Positions 1 through 7,282 of a stretch of 64,000 bases of DNA are shown here, one piece after another (the first letter of the stretch is position 1; every line of letters starts with the position of its first letter). The position numbers and the translations under genes were made by a program. The notes under the pieces were generated by a model. The model worked only from the letters and a program-made list of their open reading frames with translations. It was not told the origin of the DNA and did not search any database. This DNA is from Pleomorphomonas diazotrophica (GTDB lineage: Bacteria > Pseudomonadota > Alphaproteobacteria > Rhizobiales > Pleomorphomonadaceae). Where the stretch lies: NCBI RefSeq assembly GCF_002844595.1, contig NZ_PJNW01000002.1, forward strand, positions 62,001-126,000, in the 5' to 3' direction.

Positions 1-1219
1 TCTGCAGGTTGCCCCCCGATAAGCCGCTCGCCTCGGCCTCCGCGCCGGAGGTGCGCACGTCGTGATCGGCGATGCAGCGCCGGGTGAACTCGGTAGCCTG
101 CGCCATGGCGATCAGCCCGTGCCGTACCAGACCCAGCGGGTGGGCGGTGAGGAGGCTGTTGCGCGCAAGCGACATGCCTTGCACCGCGCCACGGCCGAGG
201 CGGTCTTCCGGCACGAAGGCAAAGCCGAGTTGTCGCCGTTCGGCGGGGCCGAGATGGCCCACCGGCTCGCCCATCATCTGGACCTGCTCGCGGTTCTCGA
301 AGGGCAGCCGGATCTCGCCGGAGATCAACTCGGAAAGCTCGGCCTGCCCGTTGCCGGAAATGCCGGCGATTCCCAGGATTTCGCCAGCCCTGAGGGTGAG
401 CGCCACATCCTTGAGCGGCATGCCGAAGGGATCGTCCGGCGTGTAAGTCAGCCCGATCAACTCCAGCATGGTCTCACCCGGCTCCGATGGTGTCCTCGGC
501 GGTGGCTCGGGCATGTCGCGGCCGATCATCATGCGGGCAAGGTCATGAGCGTCGTGTTCGCGGGGATCGACGTGGCCGGTGACCTTGCCGGCGCTCAGGA
601 TGGTCGCGCGGTCGCAGATGGCGCGGATTTCCTCGAGCTTGTGCGAGATGAACAGCACCGACACGCCACCGTCGCGCAGCCTCAGCAGCGTATCGAACAG
701 CTTGTCCACCGATTGGGGTGGCAGCACGGAGGTCGGCTCGTCGAGGATCAACAGCTTCGGATCGGTCATCAGGCAGCGGATGATTTCCACCCGCTGGCGT
801 TCGCCGACCGACAGTTCGTGGACATGGGCATGGGGATCGACCTCAAGGCCGAACTCGGTGCCCAGTTCCCGAATGCGCGCGATCAGCGCCCTTGTTTGCC
901 CCGGCACCACGAGGCGGATGTTTTCAATGACGGTCAGCGTCTCGAACAGCGAGAAATGCTGAAACACCATGCCGATGCCCCGCCGGCGGGCCGCCGCCGG
1001 CGAGGCCAGTTTCAAGGGCACGCCCTGCCAGAGCATCTCCCCGCTGTCCGGCGTCTCCACGCCATAGATGAGCTTCATCAGCGTGGACTTGCCCGCGCCG
1101 TTCTCGCCCAGGATGGCGTGGATCGATCGTGGCGCGACGTCGATATCCACGGCCTGATTGGCCCGGACCTCGCCGTAACGCTTGGAGATGCCGCGCAATG
1201 ATAGGAGGGGCGCCGCCAT
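1..1219 (-). CDS. BMP-family (purine/nucleoside-type) ABC transporter ATP-binding protein, 3' end cut by window
   Basis: Double-domain sugar/nucleoside-type ABC ATPase that would energise import of the ligand bound by the neighbouring BMP lipoprotein-like protein. The first domain has Walker A GENGAGKST near residue 38, a Q-loop (VFQHFSLF), the signature LSVGERQR and Walker B LLILDEPTS. A second domain follows (GISGNGQAEL replaces a true Walker A), and its signature GLSGGNLQ lies at the window edge (bases 2-25), so the C-terminus is outside. The start ATG at 1217-1219 is preceded by the stop of the BMP gene 6 bases upstream, so it is the last visible gene of the operon that begins near 5861. 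Permease genes would be expected to the left. The substrate is inferred from context only. Confidence 0.93.
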   Translation of the reverse strand, partial: MAAPLLSLRGISKRYGEVRANQAVDIDVAPRSIHAILGENGAGKSTLMKLIYGVETPDSGEMLWQGVPLKLASPAAARRRGIGMVFQHFSLFETLTVIENIRLVVPGQTRALIARIRELGTEFGLEVDPHAHVHELSVGERQRVEIIRCLMTDPKLLILDEPTSVLPPQSVDKLFDTLLRLRDGGVSVLFISHKLEEIRAICDRATILSAGKVTGHVDPREHDAHDLARMMIGRDMPEPPPRTPSEPGETMLELIGLTYTPDDPFGMPLKDVALTLRAGEILGIAGISGNGQAELSELISGEIRLPFENREQVQMMGEPVGHLGPAERRQLGFAFVPEDRLGRGAVQGMSLARNSLLTAHPLGLVRHGLIAMAQATEFTRRCIADHDVRTSGAEAEASGLSGGNLQ

Positions 1220-1225
1220 GGCCGG

Positions 1226-2323
1226 TTATTTCGGCAGTGGCGAGGTGACGCCCTTCACATGCCAGTCCATGGCAACGATGGCGGCGTCGTCCAACGTGGC
1301 GCCGGCCGCCACGCCCTCGCTGCCGTCGGCCTTGGCGATCGGACCGGCAAAGGGCGAGAAGCTGCCGTCGGCGATCTTGGCTTCGATCTCAGTGATCTTC
1401 GCCTTGGTTTCGGCCGGAATGGCCGGGTTCCAGTCGACGGTCTGCACCACCTTGTCGGCGACGCCAAGGAAGGCGCTGGCGCCGGTGAACTTGCCAGCCA
1501 GATGGGCATCGACCTGCGCCTTGAAGTAGGGCGACCAGTCGGTGGCGACGCAGCCGAGATAGGTTTTCGGCGCGTAGCTCTTCATCGAGGAGTTGAGATT
1601 GAAGGCATAGACGCCGGCCTCCTCGCAGAGCGAGATCACCGAGGGCGTATCCTGCGCGTTGGAGAAGATGACGTCGCAGCCTTGCGCGATCAGCGCCTTG
1701 GCGGCTTCCTGCTCCTTGGCGGGGTCGAACCAGGAGTTCACCCAGACCACCGACACCTCGATGGCCGGGTTGATCGCCTGGGCGCCCAGCGTGAAGGCGT
1801 TGATGGAGGTGATCAGCTCGGGGATGGCGAAGGCCGAGACCGAACCGAGCTTGCCGGACTTGGACAGCGCGGCCGCCGCCATGCCCATCAGATAGGTGCC
1901 CTGGTAGTATCTCGCCGCAAAGGGCGAGAAGTTCGGAGCCACCATGTAGCCGGAGGCATGCAGCACCGAAACGTCCGGATTGCGCTTGGCGATCTGCATC
2001 GCGCCGTTCTGGTAGCCGAAGGAGCCGGCGACCAGGAACTTGTTCCCGTCGGCGACCGTCTTGTTCATGATGCGGTCGGCGTCCGGGCCTTCGGGAATGT
2101 TCTCCAGCACGGTGATCTTGACGGCGTCGCCATAGGCGGCCTTCACCGGATCGAGCCCCGCCTTCAGCGCGTGGCCCCAGCCGACATCGCCGATGGGCGA
2201 GGGCACGACGAGCGCTATGCCCAGCGGCTCGGCGGCGACGGCGAAACGGCCGCCGACCGTGGTGGCGACGCCGGCGAGTGCCGCCGTCTTGATCAGGTTG
2301 CGACGGGTAATGCCTCTGGTCAT
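1226..2323 (-). CDS. BMP family ABC transporter substrate-binding protein (Tat-type signal)
   Basis: 365-residue periplasmic binding protein of the BMP/Med family (PF02608 type), whose known members bind nucleosides or purines. The N-terminus reads TRRNLIKTAALAG..AVAAEP, a twin-arginine signal with a hydrophobic stretch and an A-x-A cleavage site, so folded export by Tat is likely. The family pattern is visible as IGDVGWGHALKAGLD, followed by blocks on ancestral nucleotide-sugar folds such as ASGYMVAPNFSPFAARYYQGTYLMGMAAA. The start is the ATG at 2321-2323. Longer in-frame extensions upstream run into the preceding amidohydrolase reading region and lack a signal. It lies 26 bases after the amidohydrolase gene and 6 bases before the ATPase gene. 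The ligand is unknown; the gene neighbours suggest a modified purine. Confidence 0.92.
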   Translation of the reverse strand: MTRGITRRNLIKTAALAGVATTVGGRFAVAAEPLGIALVVPSPIGDVGWGHALKAGLDPVKAAYGDAVKITVLENIPEGPDADRIMNKTVADGNKFLVAGSFGYQNGAMQIAKRNPDVSVLHASGYMVAPNFSPFAARYYQGTYLMGMAAAALSKSGKLGSVSAFAIPELITSINAFTLGAQAINPAIEVSVVWVNSWFDPAKEQEAAKALIAQGCDVIFSNAQDTPSVISLCEEAGVYAFNLNSSMKSYAPKTYLGCVATDWSPYFKAQVDAHLAGKFTGASAFLGVADKVVQTVDWNPAIPAETKAKITEIEAKIADGSFSPFAGPIAKADGSEGVAAGATLDDAAIVAMDWHVKGVTSPLPK

Positions 2324-2349: not shown

Positions 2350-3729
2350 TCAGAAGTCGATGGTTGCAAGCGTGGCCTCGGCATCGGCGGCCATTTCCGC
2401 CTCGTCGATGCCGGGGAACTCTCCGTTGGCCCAGACGATGCGGCCGTTGATCATGGTGAGGTCGGTGGCCATGCCGATACCGAGCTTGGCCGGCAGGCTC
2501 AGCGGGTCGTGGCGCGTGCCGACGTAATCCATGCGCCGCGTGTCGATGGCAAAGAGATCCGCCGCCATGCCCGGCACGAGGCGGCCGATGTCGGTGCGCC
2601 CGAGAAGGGCCGCGCTGCCGGTCGTCGCATAGCGAAGGAAATCGACGGGCGCCGGCACCGGATGGCTGCGGGACGACGCGACAAGGCATTGCAGCATGTA
2701 GGCCGAGTGGATGCAGTGCATCAGATTGGAGTTGTCGTTGGAGGCCGCTCCGTCGCAGCCGAGGCCGACGCGCACGCCGAACGCCGCCATGGCGGGAATG
2801 TCGGTCACCTCGGTGCCAACGAGATAGACCGGCTCCGGACAATGCGAGACGCCGGTCCCTGAGGCGGCCAGCTTGGCCAGTTCGGCATGGGTCAGTTCCC
2901 AGCAATGGGCGTAGAAGACGTCCGGGCCGGCGAAACCCATCTCTTCCAGATAGTCGACCGTTCGCTTGCCATGGCGGGCCTCGATCACCGGGCTTTCGCC
3001 CTCGCCGACATGGGTATGCAGGAGAACGCCCTTGTCGCGGGCCAGCGCCACGGATTCCACGAAAGTCTCGCGGTAGCTGTTGACCGGCTGGCAGGGCGAG
3101 ACCACCACCTGCCTGAGGCTGAAGGGCGATCCGTCGTGGTAGCGGTCGATCAGCCGCTCGCAGTCGGCAAGGAACTCGTCGGTGGTCTCCAGCATCGCAT
3201 CGGGGATGGTGGAGCCTTCGGATTTCGGCAGCGTGTTGCCGCCGCGCCCGGCGTGATAGCGGATGCCCAGCCGCTCGGCCGCCTCGAACTGCCGATCGAC
3301 CAGATATTTTCCAGCATGGCGCGGGAAGCAGTATTGGTGGTCGAGCGCAGTGGTGCAGCCGTGCTTGATGAGTTCGGCCATCGCCGTCAGCGACGAGTGA
3401 TAGAAGCAGTCCTCGGTGAGCTGCGAGAAGATCGGATAGATCCGATCCAGCCATTCCAGTACCGACAGTTTCGTCCAGTCGAGGTCGGCGCGATTGCGCA
3501 CGAAGGTCTGGAAGAAATGGTGGTGGGTGTTGACGAGGCCCGGATAGACGAACCAGCCGGAGGCGTCGATCACTTCGGCGCCCTCGGCCTCCGGCGTTGC
3601 GCTGAGGTTGGGAGCGATGGCCTTGATGGCCGGGCCGTCGGTCAGAAGGTCGACGTCACGGCGAACGCGTGGGCCGGCGCCGTTGTCCACCATCACCGCC
3701 GCGCAGTTCCTGAGAAGATAGTTGCCCAT
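2350..3729 (-). CDS. Amidohydrolase, 8-oxoguanine deaminase-like
   Basis: 459-residue metal-dependent hydrolase of the amidohydrolase superfamily (AtzA/TrzN/guanine deaminase branch). The metal-binding H-x-H is in PGLVNTHHHFFQ at about residues 63-74; LLHTHVGEGES carries the next histidine, YAHCWELTH another, and GLGCDGAASNDNSNLM the catalytic aspartate. The NTHHH-x-x-Q and DG-x-ASND-x-SNL patterns are, from memory, typical of bacterial 8-oxoguanine deaminases, which convert 8-oxoguanine to urate and ammonia. That exact substrate is an inference. The start ATG (3727-3729) is one base after the stop of the GST gene. It could also be a hydroxytriazine or other aminopurine hydrolase. It lies between oxygenase genes and a BMP importer. 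Confidence 0.88.
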   Translation of the reverse strand: MGNYLLRNCAAVMVDNGAGPRVRRDVDLLTDGPAIKAIAPNLSATPEAEGAEVIDASGWFVYPGLVNTHHHFFQTFVRNRADLDWTKLSVLEWLDRIYPIFSQLTEDCFYHSSLTAMAELIKHGCTTALDHQYCFPRHAGKYLVDRQFEAAERLGIRYHAGRGGNTLPKSEGSTIPDAMLETTDEFLADCERLIDRYHDGSPFSLRQVVVSPCQPVNSYRETFVESVALARDKGVLLHTHVGEGESPVIEARHGKRTVDYLEEMGFAGPDVFYAHCWELTHAELAKLAASGTGVSHCPEPVYLVGTEVTDIPAMAAFGVRVGLGCDGAASNDNSNLMHCIHSAYMLQCLVASSRSHPVPAPVDFLRYATTGSAALLGRTDIGRLVPGMAADLFAIDTRRMDYVGTRHDPLSLPAKLGIGMATDLTMINGRIVWANGEFPGIDEAEMAADAEATLATIDF

Positions 3730-3730
3730 G

Positions 3731-4393
3731 TCAAACCGTCTCCGGCATGTCGGAAACCGGTTCCGGCTTGAGCTCGTGCAGGCGATGGATGCCGGGCATC
3801 TCGATGAAGCCGGGCAGCATGCGGATGGCCCGCATCCACAGGCGGATCGACGGGTAGGGATCGAGCGACAGGCCGCCGTCCGGGGCGAGCGCCACATAGG
3901 GGAAACAGGCGATATCGGCGATCGTCGCCCGGTCGGCTGCCAGGAAGCACTGGCCGACGATGCGCCGCTCGGCGAGGGCGGCTTCAACTTCGCGGAGATC
4001 GACGGTGCCGGCCCTCTGCAAGCTTGGCAGGTCGCCGGGCTCCACCAGCATTTCCGTGGCGCGTGCGCCACCCAGGTGGTCGGTCAGCCGGCGCGAGAAG
4101 GAGAGCCATTGCTGGATGCGAGCCGCGTCCGCCGCGTCGTTTTCGCCGAGCCACTCGGGCGCAGCGAGCTTGGCCAGATAGACCAGCATGGCCGCGCTCT
4201 CGGTGAGGATCAGGTCGCCATCGACCAGGATCGGGATCGAGCCGGCCGGATTGAGTGCAAGCAAGGGCTCGGACTGGTGTTCGCGGCCGGGATGCATGTC
4301 CACCGCCCAGAGTTCCAGTTTCAGGCCGGTGAGCGCCGCCATCAGGCGCACCTTGTAGGCATCGGGCGAGAGTATGTAGTCGTAGAGGATCAT
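3731..4393 (-). CDS. Glutathione S-transferase family protein (NdmE-like in context)
   Basis: 220-residue two-domain GST. The N-terminal thioredoxin fold begins MILYDYILSPDAYKVRLMAAL, carries the cis-proline region NPAGSIPILVDGD and the glutathione gamma-glutamyl site LTESAAM, and is followed by an all-helical C-terminal domain. The start ATG overlaps the stop of the oxygenase gene (ATGA at 4390-4393), implying translational coupling. In the known caffeine N7-demethylation system a GST-like protein (NdmE) structurally holds a Rieske-less oxygenase (NdmC) together with its reductase (NdmD). The same combination of a Rieske-less oxygenase and a GST occurs here, so a scaffolding role is plausible. 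Ordinary GST catalysis remains possible. Confidence 0.9.
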   Translation of the reverse strand: MILYDYILSPDAYKVRLMAALTGLKLELWAVDMHPGREHQSEPLLALNPAGSIPILVDGDLILTESAAMLVYLAKLAAPEWLGENDAADAARIQQWLSFSRRLTDHLGGARATEMLVEPGDLPSLQRAGTVDLREVEAALAERRIVGQCFLAADRATIADIACFPYVALAPDGGLSLDPYPSIRLWMRAIRMLPGFIEMPGIHRLHELKPEPVSDMPETV

Positions 4394-5235
4394 TGGGCCA
4401 CCAGCTGCGCGCCATAGGTGAACTGATGCCGCTTCAACCAGCGGCGATAGGCGACCGAGGTGAGGTCGGCGCGGGTGGGAATCTCCCGCCCCGGGTCCAG
4501 CGGCAGCAGGCGGGGGATCTGGTTTTCCAGGATCGAGCGGTCCTGCAGGAAGATCATCTGCTGGAAATGGATGAGATCGGTCAGCGCCGTCTCATCGTCG
4601 AACAGCGCCATCCACGGCCAGACGTCGCAGAGCTCTTCTGTGAGCGGCTGCACGAAGAGCGTGATCACGTCCCATTCGCCCGGCCGCGCCGGGCAGGTCT
4701 TGTAAAGCACCGTCGAGGTCGGTGCCGGCACCCGATACATGTAGTCGGTGGTGATGCCGCCGGTGGCCGATTTGGCGGCCTGCGGCTGGTAGAACTGTAC
4801 CTTGGTCGCCCAGACCTCGTCCTCCTTCTCGCGGATCTCGACGTCATATTTGCCGACTTCGGTATGCGGTTCGGCGCCCAGGATGTCGGTGTGAACGAAG
4901 GGGAAATGGGCGATATCCAGGAAGTTCTCCACGGCCCTGAGCGGCGAGCAGCGCACCCGCACGACGCCCACCTCGACGAGACGACGGCCGGGCTGATCGG
5001 CTTCGGGGATGTCGAACAGGTCTTTTGACGGTTCGCCCAGCGACGTCCAGACGTGGCCGTAGCGGAGGGTGACCCTGAGGTCGCGGCCGTCGCCGGTGAC
5101 GACGCGGACCGGATCGCCGGGAAGAACCCTGATCGCTGTGCCCATCAGCTGCGTGGTGCGGCCCTCTGGCGGCAGTTGGCTGGCGAGAGCCACCGGGTAC
5201 CACTGGTCGATCATTGCGTGGTGGCCGATCGTCAT
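4390..5235 (-). CDS. Rieske-cluster-less non-heme iron oxygenase alpha-type subunit (NdmC-like)
   Basis: 281-residue protein built like the alpha subunit of Rieske oxygenases but lacking the [2Fe-2S] ligands. The N-terminus (IDQWYPVALASQLPP, residues 9-23) matches a Rieske-oxygenase start, but the C-x-H and C-x2-H motifs are absent and the chain passes directly to LRYGHVWTSLGEP. The catalytic domain is intact: ENFLDIAHFPFVH (residues 103-115) supplies bridging Asp107 and iron ligands His110 and His115, and FLQDRSILENQ supplies Asp232. NdmC of Pseudomonas putida caffeine degradation is the best-known oxygenase of this kind; it receives electrons through a Rieske domain on a partner. The gene overlaps its neighbours on both sides by ATGA, with the small Rieske protein immediately upstream. 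Not a frameshift remnant, because the reading frame and both overlaps are clean. Confidence 0.88.
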   Translation of the reverse strand: MTIGHHAMIDQWYPVALASQLPPEGRTTQLMGTAIRVLPGDPVRVVTGDGRDLRVTLRYGHVWTSLGEPSKDLFDIPEADQPGRRLVEVGVVRVRCSPLRAVENFLDIAHFPFVHTDILGAEPHTEVGKYDVEIREKEDEVWATKVQFYQPQAAKSATGGITTDYMYRVPAPTSTVLYKTCPARPGEWDVITLFVQPLTEELCDVWPWMALFDDETALTDLIHFQQMIFLQDRSILENQIPRLLPLDPGREIPTRADLTSVAYRRWLKRHQFTYGAQLVAQ

Positions 5236-5861
5236 GATGCGAGCTCCTTGACGCCGAGCTGTTCGCATTCGCGCCGCCATCCCTCGGCGGCTCGCGAGAC
5301 GGTGACGCAGTCGCTCTCCGTGGCCGCTGCGTCGACCATGAGATGGGCGACCGTTTCGCTGCCGCTGATCCCGACGATCAGCAACAACACATCGACGCCG
5401 GCCAACCGCGTCCGAACATCGCCGGTCGCGGAGATGAGCTTGGCGTCTACCTCGAGAGTGATCGAACGGAGCGGCTTGAATCCCTCCAGCGCCGGCGGCG
5501 GCGCTTTGGGTTCGCCCAGCGCGATCCAGATCACGCCGTTCCGCTCCTCGGTCGGGTAGCTCGCCGCCTTGATCGCGGCCGGCGGGGTCAGGTCGGGGTG
5601 GGCGGGAATGCGCCGGCATTGGCCGTTCTGGCCGTAGCTCCAGCCGTGATAAATGCAGGACAGCGCCTCGCCGCGCACGAAGCCATAGGACAGGCGCATG
5701 CCGCGATGCGGGCAGCGATCTGCCAGGGTGGCGAGCTCGCCATTTGCGCTACGCCACAGTGCCAGGATGCCGGATGGCGTGTGCGCGGGAATTACCGTTG
5801 CGGCCGGCAGATCGGCAGAAAGGGCCACTGGGATCCAGTCGCGCAGCGTCACAACGGGCAT
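5232..5861 (-). CDS. Rieske [2Fe-2S] protein, separate electron-transfer partner of the oxygenase
   Basis: 209-residue soluble protein. The Rieske fold occupies roughly residues 1-115, with cluster ligands Cys50-His52 in CPHRGMRL and Cys69-His72 in CIYHGWSY, exactly the C-x-H, C-x2-H pattern. After the Rieske domain (GVIWIALGEP) come only about 90 residues, far shorter than an oxygenase catalytic domain and without the E/N-x-x-D-x-x-H-x4-H iron site. Its start DWIPVALSADLP resembles the start of the next gene product, WYPVALASQLPP, suggesting that both derive from one ancestral oxygenase and then lost complementary parts. It is the first gene of the operon; its ATG is at 5859-5861. The reductase that would feed it is not seen in the window. 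The tail domain is unassigned. Confidence 0.88.
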   Translation of the reverse strand: MPVVTLRDWIPVALSADLPAATVIPAHTPSGILALWRSANGELATLADRCPHRGMRLSYGFVRGEALSCIYHGWSYGQNGQCRRIPAHPDLTPPAAIKAASYPTEERNGVIWIALGEPKAPPPALEGFKPLRSITLEVDAKLISATGDVRTRLAGVDVLLLIVGISGSETVAHLMVDAAATESDCVTVSRAAEGWRRECEQLGVKELAS

Positions 5862-5927
5862 GGATTCGTCTCAGATCAAAGCGGTCAAGAGGGGCGGAAA
5901 TCGTAGGAGCGCTTCCGTCTCACCCTG

Positions 5928-5993
5928 ATCTAAGTAGATATCCTATGCCCAATAAATTCTCATCTGCGAGGCAGGTGTAAATTTAGGCAGATG
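5928..5993. promoter_or_regulatory. Candidate operator region upstream of the Rieske/purine operon
   Basis: The 200-base gap upstream of the Rieske gene is AT-richer than its surroundings and holds two dyads: ATCTA-AG-TAGAT at 5928-5939 and CATCTGC...GCAGATG with arms at 5961-5967 and 5987-5993. Their position 65-130 bases before the first start codon suits a regulator site. No regulator gene lies adjacent, and I cannot name the binding protein. Confidence 0.35.
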
Positions 5994-6062
5994 CATGGCT
6001 TGCCTGCTGATATCGAAGGCGAAAGCCTCAACAACGAGCATTCGCTTGATTTTGCCCGTTGG

Positions 6063-6314
6063 CTATCGCCACTCCGGATCGGAGGAGCGCTCGATGGCGT
6101 CCACCCAGACATCAATGGGGCCGAGCAGGCAGCCCATTTCCATGGCGTCGATCAAGTCGGCCGGGCCGCGAACGTCGATGTCCACCCGCTCGGCATCGGC
6201 ATGGCGGATCTCGCCATCGAGGCCGAGACGGGCCGCGTGACGGGCGACCCACGGCAAAAAGCTGTCTGCGCCGAGGTTGCCGCGGATCGTCAGGCGTTCA
6301 CGAGCGGTGGGCAT
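6063..6314 (-). CDS. Acylphosphatase-like protein with degenerate active site
   Basis: 83-residue protein whose length and alternating pattern fit the acylphosphatase fold (ferredoxin-like alpha/beta sandwich): RLTIRGNLGADSFLPWVARHAARLGLDGEIRHADAERVDIDVRGP.. . In true acylphosphatases the loop G-x-VQGVGFR provides the catalytic arginine, and a later asparagine (VRN-x-x-DG) positions water. Here the loop is LGADSFLPW and the asparagine site reads IRHADAE, so neither catalytic residue is visible. A non-catalytic, possibly regulatory or structural role is inferred. Start ATG at 6312-6314, stop TAG at 6063. It lies downstream of prmA on the same strand, about 95 bases away, so co-transcription is possible. 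Confidence 0.72.
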   Translation of the reverse strand: MPTARERLTIRGNLGADSFLPWVARHAARLGLDGEIRHADAERVDIDVRGPADLIDAMEMGCLLGPIDVWVDAIERSSDPEWR

Positions 6315-6409
6315 TGGCAGGGCGTTCCCATTCAGTCGGCCCGGACGCTACCAGATGACCGACCATCGTTGCCAGTCCTGGCGATCCGCTCGTTCGCGAT
6401 GTGTCGACC

Positions 6410-7282
6410 TCAGCCGGCGTAACGCAGCACCAGCGTGCTCCAGACGTCCTTGACGAGGTGGCGCTCGCGCACGAAGCCCTGCGCGCGGAAGGCGGCCAGC
6501 ACGCTTTCGGCCTGCGTCCGCAGAATGCCCGAGAGAACCACGGCGGCGCCCGGCAGGGCGTGGGCGCGAAACTCAGGCGACAGCATCTTCAGGGGATCGG
6601 CCAGGATATTGGCGACGATCAGGTCGAACTTGCGGCCGACGATGGCCGGATGGGAGAAACCGGCGGCGGTGACGGCCGTGACGAGGTTGGCGGCGCCGTT
6701 GATCTCGGCGTTCTCCAGCGCGATCTCCACCGCCAAGGGGTCGATGTCGGAGGCGAGCACCGGCCGCTTGGTGGCGCGCGCAATGCCGATGGCGAGGACG
6801 CCCGATCCGGTGCCGAGGTCGAAGACGCTGTCGAAGCGGTAGACGGCGAGGAGGCGCGTCAGCGCCGTGAGGCAGCCCCAGGTGGTCGGATGATGGCCGG
6901 TACCGAAGGCCTGGTTGGCCTCGATCTGCAGGCCGATCAGTCCCCTGGGAATGCGGTCGCGGTCGTGGGCGCCGTGCACCACGAAGCGGCCGGCGATCAC
7001 CGGGCTCAGTCCTTCGAGGCTCTGGGCCACCCAATCGACATCCTCGGGTACCGGCTCGACCGTCAGGGCACTGACATCGGCGATGCCTGCCAGCGCGGCG
7101 CGGGCGGGCGCCAGGATCTCCTCACCATCCTCGGCGAAGAAGAAGCCATCCACCGCCCAGCCGCCGTCGGTCTCATACCAGGATACCGGACCGGCCTCGA
7201 CGAAGGCGGCCTCGATGGCATCGGCGATCGTCTCGGCGGCCGCCGCATCGGCGGCGGGCATGTGAAGCTGGTACTGGCGCAT
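6410..7282 (-). CDS. prmA: Ribosomal protein L11 methyltransferase
   Basis: 290-residue SAM-dependent methyltransferase that trimethylates ribosomal protein L11. The N-terminal L11-recognition domain (residues 1-110) is followed by the PrmA linker signature IEANQAFGTGHHPTT, the SAM motif DLGTGSGVLAIGIA, the acidic loop ASDIDPLAVEIA and motif IV DLIVANILADPL, which are diagnostic of PrmA. The start ATG is at 7280-7282. Length agrees with family members. It is transcribed away from the TetR gene at 7439. Confidence 0.96.
   Translation of the reverse strand: MRQYQLHMPAADAAAAETIADAIEAAFVEAGPVSWYETDGGWAVDGFFFAEDGEEILAPARAALAGIADVSALTVEPVPEDVDWVAQSLEGLSPVIAGRFVVHGAHDRDRIPRGLIGLQIEANQAFGTGHHPTTWGCLTALTRLLAVYRFDSVFDLGTGSGVLAIGIARATKRPVLASDIDPLAVEIALENAEINGAANLVTAVTAAGFSHPAIVGRKFDLIVANILADPLKMLSPEFRAHALPGAAVVLSGILRTQAESVLAAFRAQGFVRERHLVKDVWSTLVLRYAG

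Follow-up and report, generated by a model that had tools for sequence, protein, structure and literature searches.

A probable two-subunit bacterial Rieske oxygenase encoded by overlapping genes with complementary metal sites

Introduction

In Rieske oxygenases, the iron of each chain receives its electrons from the Rieske cluster of a neighbouring chain. Here we analyse two overlapping genes that place these two sites on separate proteins, found in a stretch of 64,000 nucleotides of Pleomorphomonas diazotrophica DNA (contig NZ_PJNW01000002.1, positions 62,001 to 126,000; hereafter the window), and which we call RSK (the Rieske protein) and CAT (the Rieske-less non-heme iron oxygenase). Two described systems come closest. 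NdmC-NdmD-NdmE is presented in PMC4408171 as the N7-demethylase of 7-methylxanthine in Pseudomonas putida CBB5. The chlorophyllide a oxygenase (CAO) of the alga Micromonas pusilla is described in PMC9615114 as two polypeptide chains that were purified and were active in vitro with the foreign reductase VanB; according to the same source a heterodimer had been suggested earlier, and its authors thought a trimer of dimers likely.

With these two precedents, the principle of the split is already known. The original prediction, made from the letters of the window, held that known Rieske oxygenases are single-chain except NdmC, which is right for NdmC/NdmD/NdmE but incomplete, as Micromonas CAO is described as a second case (PMC9615114). 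Its view of a free Rieske donor as an undescribed system agrees with our search of open-licence papers, which found no bacterial split oxygenase with a reductase-free Rieske partner, and no description of a reciprocal erosion of two oxygenases.

Results

The two genes lie on the minus strand and share an ATGA (5232..5235), in which the stop of RSK overlaps the start of CAT. RSK (5232..5861, 209 residues) carries a Rieske [2Fe-2S] domain at residues 9-91 (Pfam PF00355, E 1.1e-18) with Cys50, His52, Cys69 and His72 all present, and has no catalytic family by Pfam; CAT (4390..5235, 281 residues) matches VanA_C (PF19112, E 1.5e-21), has Asp107, His110, His115 and Asp232 in place, and shows no Rieske domain by Pfam, a KshA_C match remaining below threshold. 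Pfam domains, ligand residues and overlap thus confirm two overlapping genes with complementary metal sites. Neither protein carries cluster and mononuclear iron on one chain, as a canonical single-chain Rieske oxygenase does, and CAT has the non-heme iron site without a Rieske cluster, as does the catalytic subunit of NdmCDE-type systems. The similarity noticed between the N-termini is homology, CAT 1-65 aligning with the Rieske domain of RSK (hhalign E 1.9e-11). The four cluster ligands are gone from CAT, as had been stated, but the loss is wider, the whole cluster-binding segment being missing. RSK reads as a live Rieske domain (about residues 1-121) followed by an eroded catalytic-type domain (about 122-209), and CAT as a remnant Rieske base (about 1-57) followed by the live catalytic domain with D107, H110, H115 and D232.

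This arrangement is conserved. In the close loci, i.e., the best 80 of 470 CAT relatives reported, RSK is followed by CAT and then by a GST-like gene in 80/80, and the four-base overlap, proposed as a feature to seek in other genomes, recurs in 73 of the 80 with starts as called by script. No rows were dropped from this set, and the cluster motif is present in RSK in 80/80 and missing from CAT in 80/80. In a wider alignment, near-copies included, D107, H110, H115 and D232 are invariant in 117/117 CAT rows, and the iron motif DxxHxxxxH occurs in 0/111 RSK rows. The converse counts of that alignment are circular: the 0/117 CAT rows with a Rieske motif follow from the prior removal of such rows (L147, L150 and L153, which fall among single-chain oxygenases), and the 111/111 RSK rows with a cluster motif from the fact that rows were kept only with it, the reductase of L178 (no cluster motif) and one low-scoring L167 fragment being left out.

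A similar pattern is seen in two genome samples. Among 398 genomes sampled by phylum, 22 match CAT at E <= 1e-30; in seven of them a Rieske match lies within the same open frame, which identifies them as single-chain oxygenases, and in the other 15 an RSK or NdmD-type match lies at most 7 kb from CAT (15/15). Among 385 genomes sampled by class, 24 match CAT at E <= 1e-8: all eight with a CAT of at least 45% identity have RSK nearby, 15 of the other 16 (at most 38% identity) have an abutting same-strand Rieske match, as in single-chain oxygenases, and the remaining one (G079, L102) has a partial catalytic match only. CAT relatives with a normal Rieske domain, named in the original prediction as a sign of local deletion that would refute it, form a separate clade of 15 single-chain rows, divided from the CAT rows by a branch with support 100/98 in the CAT tree; the prediction withstands this check.

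Structure comparisons suggest that the eroded parts also derive from oxygenases. When the AlphaFold2 (AF2) model of RSK is compared with oxygenases, the match extends through the tail and spans about 206 residues (residues 1-208); within the tail, R196 is conserved in 107/111 RSK rows and E200 in 105/111. For CAT, a fold search agrees with the oxygenase fold, from a poor model with a predicted local distance difference test score (pLDDT) of 57.9. Each protein therefore appears to have retained a complete oxygenase scaffold in which one of the two metal sites has been lost. The earlier term half-enzymes holds in that two complementary proteins are conserved together, but is too weak if each is a whole-oxygenase scaffold minus one site.

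RSK, at 209 residues, is not fused to a reductase as the Rieske domain is in NdmCDE-type systems. An NdmD-type reductase domain was found by tblastn in 0/80 close loci (8.6-12.8 kb per locus), and a dedicated reductase near the pair, considered as a candidate, was found in none of the 80. In the window genome (4.5 Mb), PF00355 matches three places at E <= 0.001, namely RSK and two others whose gene neighbourhoods suggest NirD and the cytochrome bc1 Rieske protein, so that no other Rieske oxygenase was found there. Reductases were searched for in this genome with PF00175, PF00970, PF00111 and PF14759, six further PF00111 places being left out, bar one in L002. PF00175 and PF00970 match one place each at E <= 0.001; both matches fall within a single open frame, located on a different contig, whose 284 residues read as FpR-like. 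Thus no NdmD-type reductase was found in the genome. This FpR-like protein is one candidate donor; the others are a ferredoxin reductase with a Reductase_C domain and a 2Fe-2S ferredoxin, and all three are encoded away from the pair.

The pair belongs to an operon-like row on the minus strand, in the order RSK, CAT, GST-like gene, amidohydrolase, BMP-type binding protein, ATP-binding cassette (ABC) ATPase and two permeases. The GST-like gene (3731..4393, 220 residues, Pfam GST_N 4.2e-13) overlaps CAT by four bases, and its product, an NdmE-type partner encoded alongside as in NdmCDE-type systems, is 42% identical to the GST adjoining NdmC/NdmD-like genes of P. putida KF715. The ABC transporter ATPase occupies 1..1219 and continues past the window edge, the two permease genes lying beyond it (L001 9712-13219). 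Upstream of RSK, on the same strand, is an acylphosphatase-like gene (6063..6314, 83 residues, Pfam PF00708 1.2e-5), and such a gene is likewise upstream in R. ruizarguesonis, R. johnstonii and Qingshengfaniella. Scanning 5700-6500 for promoters and terminators gave no hit. The closest named CAT homologue among the matches listed, from which the window's own or nearest genome may be omitted, is that of Pleomorphomonas oryzae (94%).

Two neighbours bear on the substrate. The amidohydrolase (2350..3729, 459 residues) is 8-oxoguanine-deaminase-like: it scores 371 bits against NCBIfam PRK08203, under the 8-oxoguanine deaminase cut-off of 532, its closest PDB entry is 3hpa (6.8e-84), with the 8-oxoguanine deaminase 7ww2 at 5.6e-82, and there are further matches to triazine hydrolases and to a putative cytosine/guanine deaminase (queries without the first 7 residues of the full frame). 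The BMP-family substrate-binding protein (1226..2323, 365 residues, Pfam Bmp 1.6e-42) is closest in the PDB to 6pi5, AtzT (7.9e-81, queries without the first 6 residues of the full frame), whose apparent native ligand according to PMC6834077 is guanine. Furthermore, CAT of R. tumorigenes adjoins a gene annotated guaD, and related clusters hold genes annotated hpxO and nucleobase:cation symporters. The deaminase-like enzyme, the AtzT-like binding protein and the guaD neighbour make a guanine-like purine the likely substrate, which would likely be imported, deaminated and oxidised; as the rest of the operon would import and deaminate such a purine, the oxygenase probably oxidises or N-demethylates it. 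Demethylation of 7-methylguanine would be a guess by analogy with the reaction of NdmC, and a literature search on 7-methylguanine catabolism gave no paper on the topic by title.

The pair might, with some probability but rather doubtfully, work as described on another heterocycle, e.g., a pterin or a triazine-like compound. This would accommodate the sub-threshold score of the amidohydrolase and its matches to triazine hydrolases and a putative cytosine/guanine deaminase, and also the replacement, relative to the AtzT residues given in PMC6834077, of Tyr45 by Trp, of Asn220 by Asp with an adjacent one-residue insertion, and of the second-shell Asn169 by Ser. Against it, five of the seven contact residues of the apparently guanine-binding AtzT are identical (Ser97, Phe98, Glu165, Trp194 and Asn218), and related clusters hold the genes annotated guaD, hpxO and the nucleobase:cation symporters.

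The Rieske partner takes several forms in a wider set of 27 loci. A free RSK of 197-256 residues is found in L116, L119, L160-L164, L166, L168, L169, L171, L178 and L179, and a fused Rieske-reductase of 574-588 residues in L113, L114, L115, L117, L118, L167, L172, L173, L175, L176 and L177. L174 (6803-7996, minus strand) encodes a 397-residue fusion of a Rieske module with a plant-type 2Fe-2S ferredoxin, without flavin or NAD domain by Pfam, an architecture between free RSK and NdmD. L178 (7325-10275, plus strand) has, in a row, a free RSK, CAT (230 residues, the frame as called being short at its start), a GST-like gene and then a reductase gene that stands on its own; this may represent a stage preceding fusion. 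GST lies within the stretch of 24 of the 27 loci (not L165, L167 and L170), CAT precedes RSK in L164, L166 and L168, and in L116 RSK and GST are on the opposite strand. In Sinorhizobium and relatives (L117, L172, L173, L175), two tandem Rieske-less CAT genes accompany one shared NdmD-type gene, and their substrates may differ.

The outgroup consisted of the 15 single-chain rows, picked for resemblance to CAT, and the Rieske tree likewise sets RSK together with the NdmD-type Rieske domains apart (96/92). From both separations, one origin of the pair appears the simplest reading. Mapping free and fused forms onto the CAT tree requires at least four changes. In the Rieske tree a group of 15 rows (99/94) contains all 11 fused ones; its first branch is a free row, and further free rows fall outside the group. 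The branch between the fused rows and the nearby free ones has 92/90, under the program's mark. This nesting lends modest support to the fusion with the reductase having come later than the free form. The opposite course, in which RSK was shed from an NdmD-type fusion by gene fission, is conceivable but not what we would expect: the fusion is the form known experimentally and inner forks are weak in both trees, but the nesting of the fused rows and the existence of a cluster with a separate reductase gene (L178) speak against it.

The nearest single-chain oxygenases (L147-L153) adjoin BMP-type ABC transporter genes, and in four of these seven loci (L150-L153) a guanine-deaminase-like gene is also present; the purine setting may therefore predate the split.

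Discussion

RSK and CAT are probably the subunits of a single heteromeric Rieske non-heme iron oxygenase, NdmCDE-like in kind, and each would derive from a whole oxygenase. This rests on the pairing of the genes, the conservation of the residues, the kinship of the eroded with the live parts and the finding of no NdmD-type reductase nearby; contact, electron path, substrate and reductase are proposed on these grounds. RSK would have kept the Rieske cluster with a shrunken catalytic domain, and CAT the iron site with a shrunken Rieske domain. The cluster of RSK would be charged by NAD(P)H and a reductase with a gene of its own. RSK would dock on CAT in the way that neighbouring protomers meet in the trimer of an ordinary oxygenase, and electrons would travel via Asp107 to the iron of CAT, which would activate O2. 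The GST-like protein would probably aid assembly, as proposed for NdmE.

Several observations weigh against this proposal. The sequence match of the RSK tail to a catalytic domain covers 24 columns with an hhalign probability of 73%, its score against single-chain oxygenases (16.1) is within the control range, the AF2 model of RSK may lean on the known fold, and that of CAT is unfit for detail. In single-chain oxygenases (n=6), too, the Rieske part is the more variable of the two (59.4%, against 71.6% for the catalytic part), so that part of the contrast within CAT is ordinary. CAT stands without RSK in the examined stretch of 2 of the 27 wider loci (L165 and L170), whose contigs each bear another CAT with RSK.

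That RSK is an ordinary Rieske ferredoxin with an unrelated tail, serving several enzymes and CAT loosely, is an alternative that we judge unlikely. The model of RSK matches oxygenases along its whole length and, on that model, RSK would exceed a ferredoxin of about 100 residues with a Rieske domain only and no catalytic-type domain. Moreover, R196 and E200 of the tail are kept, RSK accompanies CAT, and no other Rieske oxygenase was found in the window genome. A local deletion, pseudogene or assembly error, for which only the odd architecture itself speaks, can be rejected, as both genes recur in all 80 close loci and also in other families, with the iron ligands in every CAT row.

The proposed heteromer could be part of a broader scenario, which as a whole is speculative: hetero-oligomeric Rieske oxygenases, widespread in bacteria, would form a family of single origin, produced by reciprocal erosion of two whole-oxygenase copies. 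Its free-Rieske form would be the older one, and NdmD would have come about when a decayed oxygenase subunit was later joined to a reductase. In rhizobia and relatives the family would serve a route for modified guanine (e.g., 7-methylguanine from RNA) that is imported, deaminated and demethylated. With one site per chain, a pair such as RSK/CAT would make it possible to follow each direction of electron crossing between chains on its own, and to alter or label either site independently of the other. The pair further hints at where the odd Rieske domain of NdmD came from, and at a purine route, as yet uncharacterised, on many Rhizobium plasmids.

Among known systems, SxtT and GxtA (SxtDIOX) are the best PDB sequence matches of both RSK (3.2e-28) and CAT (3.4e-23, with NdmA following) and the best structural match of RSK, but they bear both metal sites on a single chain, unlike RSK/CAT. 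NdmA and NdmB, purine demethylases according to PMC4408171, and dicamba monooxygenase appear to share the fold of the pair in structure comparisons; they are single-chain and 14-22% identical in the aligned parts. Micromonas CAO, an algal enzyme with a chlorophyll substrate, resembles RSK/CAT in its described division into two chains. As in NdmCDE, described in PMC4408171, there is a catalytic subunit without a Rieske cluster, a Rieske domain on another chain and a GST-like partner; in contrast, the Rieske domain is there fused to the reductase NdmD, and here it is a free 209-residue protein with no such reductase gene near. CAT is 43-47% identical to plasmid homologues with an NdmC/NdmD-like layout, a comparison with these homologues and not with NdmC itself, and the label NdmC-like is based on plasmid clusters from host types listed in PMC4408171, which we infer to be the same clusters. 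The pair is thus a real, conserved and free-standing variant of the split known from caffeine-degrading bacteria.
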